A DNA stretch of 32,203 nt, from positions 1-32,203 of the forward strand of contig DASXPS010000182.1 of assembly GCA_036493475.1 (NCBI GenBank), given 5' to 3'. Source of the stretch: Sporichthyaceae bacterium. GTDB lineage: Bacteria > Actinomycetota > Actinomycetes > Sporichthyales > Sporichthyaceae. The position numbers and the translations under genes were made by a program. This document shows positions 2,936-27,783 of this stretch, one piece after another. The notes beneath the pieces are model-generated. The model was not told the DNA's origin, made no database searches, and saw only the letters and a program-made list of their open reading frames with translations. The stretch's first letter is position 1. The number at the start of each line of letters is the position of its first letter.

Positions 2936-3661
2936 ATGCCGGATCGCCTCGAACTGCTACCCGCCGTTGACGTCGCGGACGGCCAGGCCGTGCGCCTGGT
3001 GCAGGGTGCGGCCGGTTCGGAGACCTCCTACGGCGACCCGATCGCGGCGGCGTTGGCCTGGCAAGCCGCGGGGGCGCAGTGGATCCACCTGGTGGATCTG
3101 GACGCCGCGTTCGGCCGGGGATCGAACCGGGAGTTGCTGCACGAGGTGGTTGCCAAGCTCGACGTGAAGGTCGAGATGAGCGGGGGCATCCGCGACGACG
3201 CGTCGTTGGAGGCGGCGATGGCCACCGGGTGCGCCCGGGTGAACATCGGCACCGCGGCGTTGGAGAACCCCGCGTGGTGCGCCGCGGCGATCGCCAGATG
3301 GGGCGACCGGGTGGCCGTCGGGTTGGACGTACGCGGCACCACGCTGGCGGCTCGCGGCTGGACCAAGGAGGGCGGCGACATCTGGGAGGTGCTCGCCCGC
3401 CTGGACGCCGAGGGCTGTGCCCGTTACGTGGTCACCGACGTGACCAAGGACGGCACGCTGCGCGGGCCGAACCTGGACCTGCTGCGCGAGGTGTGCGCCC
3501 GCACCGACCGTCCGGTGGTGGCCTCCGGTGGTGTGTCCAGCCTGGACGACCTGCGCGCCATCGCGTCGCTGGTGCCGCTGGGTGTGGAGGGCGCCATCGT
3601 CGGCAAAGCCCTGTACGCCCGCGCGTTCACCCTCCAGGAGGCACTGGCCGCGGTGTCCTGA
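2936..3661 (+). CDS. priA: PriA: bifunctional HisA/TrpF isomerase
   Basis: This 241-residue (beta-alpha)8 barrel catalyses the Amadori rearrangement of ProFAR to PRFAR in histidine synthesis. In actinobacterial PriA enzymes it also converts phosphoribosylanthranilate to CdRP in tryptophan synthesis. Visible signatures are [18 protein letters not shown] at the N-terminus with catalytic Asp12, the substrate loop [22 protein letters not shown], the phosphate-binding SGGIRDD, GLDVRG (Asp131), and [10 protein letters not shown] (Asp172, the likely second acid/base). A second phosphate site is ASGGVSS. The PriA subtype is inferred from these actinobacterial motifs and from the absence of trpF in the trp cluster downstream. 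The gene appears to be leaderless. It is followed convergently, after 26 nt, by the giant repeat protein, so it is cut off from hisF. Confidence 0.93.
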
Positions 3662-17007: not shown

Positions 17008-17046
17008 GCGGCGTCGTTCCCTCCGATCATTCATGAGCGCAGCGAG

Positions 17047-17117
17047 CACTCTCATACGTGAGGCGTCAGTTTTCGGCCGTTTCGCGGGGCAAAAGTGACG
17101 CCCCGCGTATGAGAGTG
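17047..17117. repeat. Large imperfect palindrome after trpA
   Basis: CACTCTCATACG (17047-17058) is matched exactly by CGTATGAGAGTG (17106-17117). The stem continues inward with TGAGGCGTCAGTTTT against AAAAGTGACGCCCCG (three mismatches), leaving a 17-nt loop. It may end trp transcription. Its outer sequence CACTCTCAT is shared with the left edge of the palindrome after gltD at about 24599-24607, so it may belong to the same dispersed family. Confidence 0.65.
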
Positions 17118-17180
17118 GTCGCACCAGGCTCTACGGCCGACCGGCACAGATCGGGGCACAGGTTGATCGGACCGGGTTGA

Positions 17181-24605: not shown

Positions 24606-24667
24606 ATCTTCGTCCGGCGTTTCGGGGTATCAACCTGCTCTGATAGCCCCAAACCCCGGACGAAGAT
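24606..24667. repeat. Palindrome copy 1 (left border of DUF559 unit)
   Basis: The arms are 24606-24632 and 24641-24667, 27 nt each with 24 matches and an 8-nt loop. The core is CGTCCGGCGTTTCGGGGTAT. The same sequence recurs in opposite orientation at 25648-25709. Unpaired positions 13 and 22 of the arm are mismatched in both copies, so the copies share a conserved sequence rather than only the ability to fold. It may also end gltD transcription. Confidence 0.75.
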
Positions 24668-24682
24668 GGGTGGGATGGGTGG

Positions 24683-25579
24683 TCAGGCGGCGCGCGAAAG
24701 CATCGTGCCGACCTCGCGCACGATGAGTTGTGGGGTGCGGAAGACATCCCGTGCCGTGTAGCGCAACAGCGGCAGATCGCCCAGCAGCATTCCGTTCTCC
24801 CGCCGGAGGTCGGCGATGTGGTGTTCGGCCTCCGCATGCTGCTCTCCGTCGTACTCAATGCCGAAATTCGGCCGCCGAAAGCGCATGTCGGGGATGCCGA
24901 GCAGTGTCCCGTCGGCGGCGTAGTAGGGCTCGTTGAGGTAGTCCGGCTCGGGGAGTCCTCCTTGCACGATCACCATCCGCAACCGTGATTCCATTGGCGA
25001 CGCGGCTCCCGGACGGGCCAGCGCCACCGCCTCGCGGACCTTGCGCACGTGTGGCCAGTACGGGCGCTCGTCGGCGTATCGCATCAATCCCTGCGACGTG
25101 ACCAGGCGAGCGTGCAGGAAGCCGTCTGCCCAGACCACCGCTTCGACGAACGTGGAGGCGGCCATCAAGCCGAAGCAGGTGCGCTCCGGAGTGCTGATGG
25201 GGATGCCGTGCCACTCGTCGATGTCCTCGGGGTCGAGGGCCAATCGGCTGGTCCGCGCTCCGGCCAAGACCATGCCGTACTTCTCCCGCGACCCCGCGAG
25301 ATGCAAGGGGATCGTTGTGCCCGTCGGCGGGGTCCAAACCCCGTAGAGCCAGGCCGCGGTCACACCGGTGACGATGGCATGTGCCGGGGAAGCCAGCCGC
25401 ACAGCGTCGAAGCGACGTTGGTCGGTCAGCGGGAGCGAGGCGTGCACCGAGACGTTCCGGAACAGTCGGCGCCAGCACTTCGACCGCAACTGATCAGGCG
25501 TCAGCCCCGCGGCGGCGCCGAAGTCGTGGTGGAAGGGTCCGGTGAGGAGGACATCCGGGACGTAGGGAGTAGGAGCCAT
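24683..25579 (-). CDS. AbiEi-like wHTH / DUF559 (Vsr-fold) nuclease-like protein
   Basis: This 298-residue protein starts at ATG 25577-25579, with MAPTPYVPDVLLTGPF; the frame is open to 25639 but without family similarity or a clear ribosome site. Residues about 14-90 resemble the AbiEi antitoxin-type N-terminus, with GLTPDQLRSKCWRRLFRNVS, and VTGVTAAWLYGVW with a STPERTCFGL segment. The C-terminal region (about 200-295) matches DUF559, a very-short-patch-repair endonuclease-like fold: MESRLRMVIVQGGLPEPD, GIPDMRFRR, FGIEYDGEQHAE, and a D..R...L helix, with candidate catalytic Glu/Asp in GIEYDGEQH. The family is multicopy and patchily distributed in actinobacteria; no substrate is known. No toxin gene is next to it. 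It is convergent with gltD and bracketed by inverted palindromes. Confidence 0.7.
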   Translation of the reverse strand: MAPTPYVPDVLLTGPFHHDFGAAAGLTPDQLRSKCWRRLFRNVSVHASLPLTDQRRFDAVRLASPAHAIVTGVTAAWLYGVWTPPTGTTIPLHLAGSREKYGMVLAGARTSRLALDPEDIDEWHGIPISTPERTCFGLMAASTFVEAVVWADGFLHARLVTSQGLMRYADERPYWPHVRKVREAVALARPGAASPMESRLRMVIVQGGLPEPDYLNEPYYAADGTLLGIPDMRFRRPNFGIEYDGEQHAEAEHHIADLRRENGMLLGDLPLLRYTARDVFRTPQLIVREVGTMLSRAA

Positions 25580-25647
25580 GGACGGAACTCTGACTCCGTC
25601 GCCGGCCCCCTGGCTTCGCTTTCGCCGCCCTGTGGACAAACACGCTC

Positions 25648-25709
25648 ATCCTCGTCCGGGGTTTCGGGCTATCGAGCGGTCCTGATACCCCTAAACGCCG
25701 GACCAAGAC
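25648..25709. repeat. Palindrome copy 2 (inverted relative to copy 1)
   Basis: The arms are 25648-25674 and 25683-25709 with an 8-nt loop. Arm-to-arm pairing is weaker here (seven mismatches). Each arm differs from the corresponding arm of copy 1, read in the opposite orientation, at only three of 27 positions. It lies between the DUF559 gene start and the end of the ML-domain gene and could serve as terminator for the latter. Confidence 0.7.
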
Positions 25710-25724: not shown

Positions 25725-26198
25725 TCAGCGGACCTTGAAGGGGACGCGGACGCAGAGCAGTTGGTCGTCGTGTTGGTCGGCGGCGGTCAGCGTCAGGTTG
25801 TATCTCCCCGGCGGCGCCTGGTCGGGGACCGGCACCCGCTTGTGCAGCGAGAAGTCGCCCGCCGGTAACGGCAGGTGCACCACGTCCGCGAGCCGGCCGC
25901 TGCGGTGCAGCAGGGGCGCGCCGAGGTAGCTGACCCGCAGGTCGTAGCTGCCGCCGGTGACCCGCTGGCGCAACGTGCCGCGCACACTCACGGTCACGTC
26001 GCGACCCGCCTGCAGCGGGTAGGGATCGACGTCGACGGCACTCACCCTGGCGGGGGAGCCCGTGCCGCAGTTGGTGAAGGGCAGCGAGTCCGCAACGGCG
26101 GCCCGGGCGGGAGCCGCCACGGTGACCGCGGTGGCGAGCAGTGCGGCCGCGCCGCCGGAGGCGAGCAGACGGGTTGGGTAACGGCGGTCGGCGGGCAT
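25725..26198 (-). CDS. Secreted ML-domain (NPC2/MD-2-like) lipid-binding protein
   Basis: This 157-residue protein starts at ATG 26196-26198 with GGAGG 6 nt upstream. A signal peptide ends near ARA (residue 33). The mature chain fits the ML (MD-2-related lipid-recognition) fold in order: FTNCG (Cys44), DPYPLQAGRDVTVSV, GGSYDLRVSYLGAPLL, LPLPAGDFSLHKRVPVPD, APPGRYNLTLTAADQ, and LLCVRVPFKV (Cys149). Cys44 and Cys149 match the first and last cysteines that pair in human NPC2; the other two NPC2 disulfides are absent. Plant and fungal ML proteins carry the same PYP, GDF and PPG.Y motifs. ML proteins bind sterols or phospholipids in a beta-sandwich cavity, so an extracytoplasmic lipid-binding role is inferred. 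It is divergent from the FAD oxidase gene (148-nt gap). Confidence 0.75.
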   Translation of the reverse strand: MPADRRYPTRLLASGGAAALLATAVTVAAPARAAVADSLPFTNCGTGSPARVSAVDVDPYPLQAGRDVTVSVRGTLRQRVTGGSYDLRVSYLGAPLLHRSGRLADVVHLPLPAGDFSLHKRVPVPDQAPPGRYNLTLTAADQHDDQLLCVRVPFKVR

Positions 26199-26346
26199 GA
26201 AGACCTCCGGAATGGGTGCTGGTCGATGTCAGCGTGCCGGCCGAACCCGGGATTTTCCCGCCGGCGCCGGGCGAGTCGTTCTGACGGGCAATCTGTTGAT
26301 CGACTTTGCATTCCGCTAACGCGTCGGATGCTGAAGACTGCGCGCC

Positions 26347-27783
26347 ATGACGCTGATGCAGAGCGGAAGTCTAAATGCCCTGCGCACCGAGGTGCGCGGC
26401 GAGGTCTGCGGCCCGGAGGATGCCGGTTACGACCAGGCCCGCAGCGTGTGGAACGCGCAGATCGACCGTCGACCGGCCGCGGTCGTGTACTGCGCGGACG
26501 CCGCCGACGTCAGCGCCGCGATCCGCTGGGCCCGGGCCGAGGGCGTCGGCCTGACCGTCCGCGGCGGCGCGCACAACGCGTCGGGTTCCGCGGTGTGGGA
26601 CGGCGACCTGATGATCAACCTGGCGCGCTGCAACGCCGTCGAGGTCGACCCGGCGGCCCGCATCGCGCGCGTCGGCGGCGGGGCGCTGCTCGGTGATCTG
26701 GACGCCGCAACCCAGGCGCACGGATTGGCCGTGCCCGCGGGGGTGGTCAGCCACACCGGCGTCGGCGGGCTGACCCTCGGCGGCGGCATGGGCTGGTTGT
26801 CCCGCGACCTCGGCCTGACCATCGACAACCTGCTCGGCGCCGAGGTGGTGCTCGCCGACGGCAGTGTCGTGGAGGCCAACGAGACCGAGCACGCCGAGCT
26901 GTTCTGGGCGTTGCGCGGCGGCGGCGGCAACTTCGGCGTGGTCACCCGCTTCGATTTTCGGTTGCACCCGGTCGGCCCGATGATCCAACTGGGCATGCTG
27001 TTCTGGGACGTCGAGGACTCGGCCGCCGGTCTGCGGGCCTGCCGCGACCTGGCGGCGCAACTCCCCGCCGGGTTCGGGTTCATCATCGGCGGAATGAACG
27101 CCCCGCCCGCCCCGGTGGTGCCCGCCGAGCATCACCTCAAGCCCGGCGTCATCGCCCTGCTCGTCGGCTACGGCACCCCGGAGGAGCACGCGGCACAGGT
27201 GGACCGGCTGAAAGAGGCCTCTCTCGCTGACGCTCGAGGGGGGCGCGGGACCTGCCCGCCGCTGTTCGAGTTCGTCTCCCCGATGCCGTACGTCGCGCTG
27301 CAGCAGATGTTCGACGAGGGCAACTGCTGGGGCCTTTACAACTACGAGAAGGGCACGTCGCTGCCCGAACTCTCCGATGACGTCATCGACACCCTGGTCG
27401 AACAACTAGCCGCACGGTCGGTGCCGACCCACATGGTGTTGATGTATCTGATGGACCGGAAGTACTGCGCGGCCGCCGAGGACGCCACCGCCTGGGGTGG
27501 CCGGCGTATCCCGTACTGGGCCACGTTCATCCTCGGCGTCAACCACACCGAGGACACCTGGGGCAATGGTCGGGACTGGGTACGCGCCACCTGCGCGCGG
27601 CTGGGTGCGTTCTCCGACGGCATCGGCACGTACATCAACTCCCTGGTCGACGACGACCCGGACCTCGACACGCTGCGCGCGACCTACGGCGCGAAGTACG
27701 AACGGCTGCGCCGGGCGAAGGCCACCTACGACCCGGACAACGTGTTCCGTCGTGGCGCAAACATCACACCGGCGGGCACGTAA
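26347..27783 (+). CDS. FAD-linked oxidase, berberine-bridge-enzyme type
   Basis: This 478-residue oxidoreductase has a PCMH/VAO-type FAD domain (about residues 35-215) and a C-terminal BBE segment. RGGAHNASG contains His76, the usual site of covalent 8-alpha FAD attachment. GVGGLTLGGGMGWLSRDLGL and FWALRGGGGNFGVVTRF are diagnostic. The second covalent Cys of bicovalent members is not seen at GVVSHTGVGG, so attachment is probably single. The BBE end has a DPDNVFRRG motif with the typical NxF. A signal peptide is absent, so it is cytoplasmic. The substrate cannot be predicted; relatives oxidise sugars, alkaloids or polyketides. No biosynthetic cluster surrounds it. A short stretch, LADARGGRGTC (about residues 296-306), looks like a local insertion. 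Confidence 0.88.
   Translation: MTLMQSGSLNALRTEVRGEVCGPEDAGYDQARSVWNAQIDRRPAAVVYCADAADVSAAIRWARAEGVGLTVRGGAHNASGSAVWDGDLMINLARCNAVEVDPAARIARVGGGALLGDLDAATQAHGLAVPAGVVSHTGVGGLTLGGGMGWLSRDLGLTIDNLLGAEVVLADGSVVEANETEHAELFWALRGGGGNFGVVTRFDFRLHPVGPMIQLGMLFWDVEDSAAGLRACRDLAAQLPAGFGFIIGGMNAPPAPVVPAEHHLKPGVIALLVGYGTPEEHAAQVDRLKEASLADARGGRGTCPPLFEFVSPMPYVALQQMFDEGNCWGLYNYEKGTSLPELSDDVIDTLVEQLAARSVPTHMVLMYLMDRKYCAAAEDATAWGGRRIPYWATFILGVNHTEDTWGNGRDWVRATCARLGAFSDGIGTYINSLVDDDPDLDTLRATYGAKYERLRRAKATYDPDNVFRRGANITPAGT

Follow-up and report, generated by a model that had tools for sequence, protein, structure and literature searches.

A candidate class of nuclease-palindrome elements in actinobacteria, seen from one AbiEi/Vsr-like gene bracketed by inverted palindromes

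In a 32,203-nt stretch of DNA from a Sporichthyaceae bacterium (GCA_036493475.1, contig DASXPS010000182.1; hereafter the window), one gene of nuclease type lies between two long palindromes, and its neighbours (gltD, an ML-domain gene, a FAD/BBE oxidase gene and pykA) are housekeeping genes. An earlier note on this DNA had proposed that the palindromes may be the recognition sites of the gene's own product, and that gene and palindromes together would form an unusual selfish or defence unit. Why such a gene should stand between two copies of one palindrome is the question of this study. The features of the locus are collected in Table 1. Besides the window genome (G000, 4.27 Mb), a congener (G001) and three genomes of a sister genus (G002-G004) were compared throughout.

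Table 1 Positions of the palindromes, the nuclease-like gene and its predicted domains in the window
Feature	Position	Strand	Remarks
Left palindrome, 62 nt	24606..24667	+	26-27-nt arms, 8-nt loop; gltD stop 15 nt away, nuclease-gene stop codon 15 nt away
AbiEi/DUF559(MTES_1575)-like gene	24683..25579	-	298 aa, ATG start at 25579
Vsr/DUF559-type PD-(D/E)XK nuclease domain (predicted)	24686..25003	-	residues 193-298; predicted fold and residue conservation
AbiEi-antitoxin-like domain with N-terminal winged helix (predicted)	25013..25570	-	residues 4-189; predicted fold and PADLOC AbiEi match
Right palindrome, 62 nt	25648..25709	-	family of the left one, opposite orientation; 68 nt upstream of nuclease-gene start codon; ML-gene stop 15 nt away
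Palindrome 3' of trpA	17042..17122	+	dispersed copy of another family; also borders a DUF559 paralog on contig C82 of the window genome

As shown in Table 1, two 62-nt palindromes were verified at the coordinates first reported, supported by their fold and by their match to each other. Hairpin z scores against dinucleotide shuffles on the two strands were -7.8/-9.2 for the left copy and -2.3/-4.1 for the right copy, and the two copies matched with an E value of 4.8e-13 in a search of the 4.27-Mb genome. Covariance model R1 scored the left palindrome at 81.2 bits on the + strand versus 71.8 on the other, and the right palindrome at 77.4 bits on the - strand versus 60.7 on the other. Since these scores place the copies on opposite strands, the pair is truly inverted, as had been claimed, and the claim that it encloses a single gene was correct too. 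Mispaired arm positions 13 and 22, read earlier as a mark of common ancestry, were indeed seen in both copies, together with position 18. However, 9 of the 11 copies of this family lack a pair at position 22 and 7 of the 11 at position 13, so that both are features of the family; at position 18 the two window copies carry different mispaired bases, which gives no evidence of common descent. Likewise, the outer sequence said to be common to the palindrome after trpA amounted to a short CTCAT-like stretch, the trpA palindrome being of a different family. In Rfam, the locus matched only animal miRNA precursors, all below threshold, and these matches were rejected.

The protein had been labelled DUF559/AbiEi-like. 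Searches of the window protein against Pfam and NCBIfam models gave nothing at E<0.1 and E<1, respectively, so the label finds no Pfam or NCBIfam match in the protein itself, but it is supported by a PADLOC AbiEi match (E 1.7e-6), by the predicted fold and by the matches of 73 relatives (REase_MTES_1575 in 47/73, DUF559 in 33/73, AbiEi_1 in 16/73 and AbiEi_4 in 14/73). In the AlphaFold model (pLDDT 92.5, pTM 0.89), residues 4-189 aligned with 6y8q (VIA-align Z 8.8, rmsd 6.0, 176 aligned) and with Rv2827c 1zel (VIA-align Z 7.4), while residues 193-298 aligned with I-Bth0305I 3r3p (Z 11.7), the DUF559 protein 3hrl (Z 11.0) and Vsr 1cw0 (Z 10.0). The earlier description of a nuclease-fold protein with an antitoxin-like N-terminus thus agrees with the predicted fold. 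S194, E197, R201, D231, E242, G245 and R260 were at least 90% conserved among 73-88 homologs. The window protein is accordingly predicted from the model to be an AbiEi winged-helix domain joined to a Vsr-type nuclease, with E197, D231 and E242 as putative catalytic residues. A search of 40 genomes found relatives in 29, the closest in G001 (62% identity) and in G002-G004 (56-60%); a scan of the named-genome collection gave 0 relatives for the window protein and 7 for a protein from Tsukamurella.

DUF559/Vsr and AbiEi domains are found in conflict systems. Such a background, together with weak PADLOC AbiEi matches, would favour a defence unit, in which the nuclease would cleave incoming foreign DNA and the palindromes would serve as self-markers, decoys or regulatory sites. 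However, the window nuclease gene has housekeeping neighbours, with neither an AbiEii-like partner nor any other gene of defence next to it, and nothing of the system was found in the phage records and viral contigs searched. In addition, palindromes in the cell's own genome would be targets and not protection. We regard a defence role as quite improbable; of the two roles named by the earlier note, the selfish one is supported and the defence one is left without support.

The palindromes turned out to be dispersed repeats. The window family was found at 11 places in G000 (R1 66-81 bits), 2 of them bracketing the gene and 9 dispersed. In this family the changes in the arms are non-compensatory, so that pairs are broken rather than preserved, and blocks of the arms are invariant. 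About 10 weaker R1 matches (34-56 bits) in G000 belong mostly to a second, related palindrome family (CTCATGGCGTGTGGGGCTATC...), for which no cognate gene was found at its ~10 places in G000 (loci L087-L095, positions 3015-3154 of each). The trpA-type family occupies ~17 places in G000, among them the one beside the DUF559 paralog listed in Table 1, and weaker relatives of it are present in G001. Two G001 palindromes (L054 and L058) are hybrid-looking, mixing arms of the CTCATGGCGTGTGGGGCTATC... family with arms of the G001 family described below, hinting that palindrome arms may change in modules. At one solo palindrome on contig C2 of G000 (L011:2960-3110), both flanks were partly duplicated, with GGCTCGCCACCTGAGCCCGTC twice before and TTGGTCAGAGGGTGAGG twice after, and half a palindrome in between; the duplications look as if a break there might have been repaired imprecisely. 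This convergent site (C2/C37) is occupied in G001 as well, by a different palindrome, and being the only shared solo site of this kind, it is too little to argue for concerted replacement.

The orthologous locus of the congener showed the same architecture with other letters. The G001 ortholog lies at the same gltD/pykA locus in the same orientation, and it is flanked on both sides by a palindrome of very different sequence (ACTTCTGCTGCCTGTCCCACSTATC...). This palindrome was present at no fewer than 40 places in G001 (a lower bound, as 40 of 64 candidates were scored) and at none in G000, G002, G003 and G004. All of 36 G001 copies were 60 nt long, with conserved arms of ~25 nt and a variable centre of ~10 nt. 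A test for complementarity in the sequence immediately flanking the G001 palindromes was negative. In the window, the unit is separated from pykA by the ML-domain and FAD/BBE oxidase genes (25725-27783), and both are absent from G001, suggesting that the gltD-pykA interval gains genes repeatedly.

The earlier note had proposed examining whether the palindromes co-occur with DUF559 genes. Loci of relatives were picked by protein homology only, and 60 further loci were fetched once the pattern had been noticed. At a score of at least 20, a palindrome on one flank recurred on the other flank for 51 of 87 genes, as compared with 0.4% when flanks were swapped between loci. At a score of at least 22, a matched pair surrounded 46 of 79 genes versus 4 of 856 control intervals, homology-anchored and random, from the same regions (Fisher p ~1e-51), so that co-occurrence was far above the controls. 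Among the loci added once the pattern was known, 27 of 44 genes, or 21 of 35 clusters at 60% identity, were positive, and none of 387 other, mechanically called ORFs had a matched pair after exclusion of two DUF559 genes that had gone unrecognised. Eight of the nine paralogs in G000 were bracketed in this way (C182, C155, C147, C214, C82, C217, C12 and C49), with C204 the only negative. No matched pair was found around ~40% of genes, and the 56-60% orthologs in G002-G004 had hairpins that were weak or one-sided only.

Each nuclease gene has its own palindrome sequence, and protein identity was correlated with palindrome similarity (Mantel test, observed value reached in 0 of 2000 permutations). 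Protein pairs of at least 70% identity shared a palindrome in 7/7 cases, not all of them independent as some are orthologs in sister genomes; the share was 35% at 50-70% identity and 13% at 40-50%, and below 26% it was 0/534. At sequence level, these private, co-evolving pairs give good support to the idea that each protein recognises its own palindrome, and we infer binding from them. The inverted arrangement noted at the window locus did not hold as a general rule, as 14 of the 21 pairs with resolvable orientation were direct.

Empty sites, which the earlier note had also suggested looking for, were found both at gltD-pykA in G002-G004 and in Tsukamurella. The gltD-pykA spacing without a nuclease gene is 77 nt in G002 and 76 nt in G003; in G004 it is 120 nt, again without the gene, and holds a solo palindrome akin to the one that accompanies another DUF559 gene of G004. 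In T. tyrosinosolvens, T. ocularis and T. sputi, a palindrome-gene-palindrome unit lies between HAD hydrolase and SpoIID genes. At the same site, T. conjunctivitidis has one solo palindrome of the T. tyrosinosolvens-unit family and lacks the gene; palindrome and gene are both missing there in Tsukamurella sp. 1534 and sp. 8F. Tsukamurella sp. 1534 carries a palindrome-gene-palindrome unit at another locus that has no flanking genes in common with T. tyrosinosolvens, and the homology between the two extends across the whole unit, stopping at the outer margins of its two palindromes. As far as the compared alleles go, presence and absence at empty and solo sites fit gain and loss alike. The T. 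tyrosinosolvens palindrome was found in eight records of that species and in no other among 72,556 plasmid-collection records. The PLSDB "plasmids" of T. tyrosinosolvens NCTC13231 (L248, L249, L285 and L288) carry purB, gatA, cobN and similar genes, and therefore look like pieces of chromosome.

Most palindrome sites are common to G002 and G003, whose nucleotide identity is 92-95%, suggesting that movement is slow; given these shared sites, some nuclease-palindrome systems may have become domesticated. A CobN-like coding sequence contains a palindrome in frame in G002 (L214:1498-1596) and G004 (L234) and lacks it in G003 (L235), the site measuring 99 nt in G002 and 21 nt in G003. Elsewhere on the same G002 locus (L214:82-213) there is a repeat of ~80-130 nt that matches itself on both strands and is high-copy and dispersed in G003, likely another palindrome family.

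Ordinary bidirectional terminators, or mRNA-stabilising hairpins, could flank a gene by chance. The hairpins are strong, and compensatory arm changes in the G001 family exceeded those of all 500 shuffles. The setting would suit terminators as well: for 33 of 37 G001 loci the gene calls on either side were identified, and these were convergent in 16 cases, tandem in 14 and divergent in 3, with no palindrome called within a gene. However, unlike intrinsic terminators, the palindromes are followed by no T-run, and in the window family the changes break pairs while the arm blocks stay invariant. Chance flanking also fails to account for sequences private and tied to each nuclease gene, for the low control rate and the lack of matched pairs around the 387 other ORFs, or for the copy in frame inside the CobN-like coding sequence. 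This explanation is thus very improbable, the least probable of those considered. The outcome that the earlier note had named as speaking against its idea, plain terminators with no link to DUF559 genes and no empty alleles, was looked for and not found.

Another explanation is autoregulation with a passive repeat, in which the protein acts as a repressor by binding to the palindrome upstream of its gene, solo copies are regulatory sites or terminators, and gain or loss proceeds by homologous recombination without the nuclease. The operon that encodes AbiEi is preceded by inverted repeats to which AbiEi binds (PMC3985639); the right window palindrome lies upstream of the start codon (Table 1), and the Tsukamurella one overlaps the start codon. 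A single palindrome, as seen in T. conjunctivitidis, is precisely what recombination between two would leave behind. An autoregulatory or passive-recombination reading therefore possibly fits part of the data. But it leaves unexplained the downstream copy of the palindrome, the strictly conserved nuclease residues, the unit with palindrome borders at unrelated loci and the 40 species-specific dispersed copies, and we consider it unlikely, though less so than the defence or terminator explanations.

The locus is probably one member of a large class of mobile or domesticated nuclease-palindrome elements, which resemble REP-RAYT systems in their working and are not homologous to them. The argument is built from comparison of sequences: bracketing, dispersal, private co-evolving families, replacement at the orthologous locus, borders at palindromes, and empty or solo alleles. 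The two-part element class, consisting of a gene with a private pair of ~60-bp palindromes and solo copies that are mainly intergenic, is apparently new to description. No literature linking DUF559 or AbiEi-DUF559 genes to palindromes or inverted repeats was found in a search that covered subscription journals thinly.

The DNA binding, cleavage and copying route of such an element we infer as follows. The protein, probably dimeric, would bind its cognate palindrome at both ~26-bp arms, and the nuclease would cut or nick at the bound palindrome. Repair might then copy the palindrome alone to new sites, or carry a copy of the entire palindrome-gene-palindrome unit into a solo palindrome in a homing-like manner, the palindromes providing the homology. 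The inverted repeat bound by AbiEi has arms of up to 23 bp (PMC3985639), and I-Bth0305I, a homing enzyme of Vsr fold, dimerises on a target of ~60 bp (PMC3943268); a protein that combines an AbiEi part with a Vsr-fold part would be expected to dimerise on a ~60-bp palindrome and cut it. The chances are about even, in our judgement, that these are selfish or domesticated winged-helix/Vsr-fold nucleases forming a widespread counterpart of REP-RAYT of independent origin, which bind a ~60-bp palindrome as a dimer, propagate it and home into solo copies, with dozens of orthogonal specificities across actinobacteria.

Such a reading would supply a functional hypothesis and a natural substrate for an actinobacterial protein family that is common (up to about a dozen copies per genome here) and uncharacterised, and would explain the families of dispersed palindromes in these genomes. 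As each protein is paired with its own flanking palindrome, specificity could be read from the genome and is directly testable. If true, the set would amount to a catalogue of orthogonal ~60-bp recognition systems.

Comparison with known systems placed the element near several of them. Its borders coincide with palindromes, which may be compared with IS elements and MITEs, and no target-site duplication was seen at the junctions inspected. Rickettsia palindromic elements and other stem-loop repeats (PMC2267715) are likewise long dispersed palindromes, at least one of ours lying in a coding frame (G002/G004 cobN), but the palindromes described here have a cognate gene between two copies. DUF559/MTES_1575/Vsr-like nucleases are resembled in the predicted Vsr-type fold (Z 10-11.7) and in the at least 90% conservation of E197, D231 and E242 among relatives. 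The winged-helix fold predicted for the N-terminus is that of AbiEi from the AbiE type IV toxin-antitoxin system (6y8q, Z 8.8), which also binds an inverted repeat (PMC3985639). However, no AbiEii nucleotidyltransferase gene adjoins, so that membership in AbiE fails; moreover, a nuclease domain is present, and the repeats stand on both sides of the gene and genome-wide.

The closest likeness of the predicted catalytic domain was to I-Bth0305I (fold Z 11.7), a Vsr-fold EDxHD homing endonuclease with a published ~60-bp dimer target (PMC3943268). Unlike I-Bth0305I, the window nuclease is fused to an AbiEi domain and is encoded by a free-standing gene between two complete target-like palindromes, not by an intron or homing endonuclease gene that splits its own site. 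A solo-palindrome allele exists, but in the occupied allele there are two palindromes, both of them whole, and gain and loss would both fit.

In REP-RAYT systems, the gene is flanked by two cognate REPs, copies are dispersed, gene and repeat co-evolve and the gene evolves fast (PMC2817692). As in REP-RAYT and TnpA-REP (PMC2817692, PMC8266576), the genes of the window, G001 and T. tyrosinosolvens lie between two copies of a dispersed palindrome of their genome. Co-evolution of gene and palindrome, species-specific families and intergenic dispersal are in common as well, and the nuclease gene diverges faster than its neighbours (62% identity between window and G001, versus 83% for gltD and 80% for pykA). 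REP-RAYT pairs are inverted, as is the window pair, but the pairs here are often direct, and palindromes of ~60 nt with 25-27-nt arms differ from REPs of 20-40 bp. The enzyme, predicted as an AbiEi wHTH joined to a Vsr-like PD-(D/E)XK nuclease, is not a Y1 HUH transposase, and being unrelated to RAYT it makes the window system not a RAYT. Y1 transposase (PF01797) was not detected in G000-G003, where control genomes gave matches, and a RAYT was rejected as driver of the palindromes in these four genomes. All this suggests that systems of a gene and its cognate palindrome arose with an enzyme unrelated to RAYTs.
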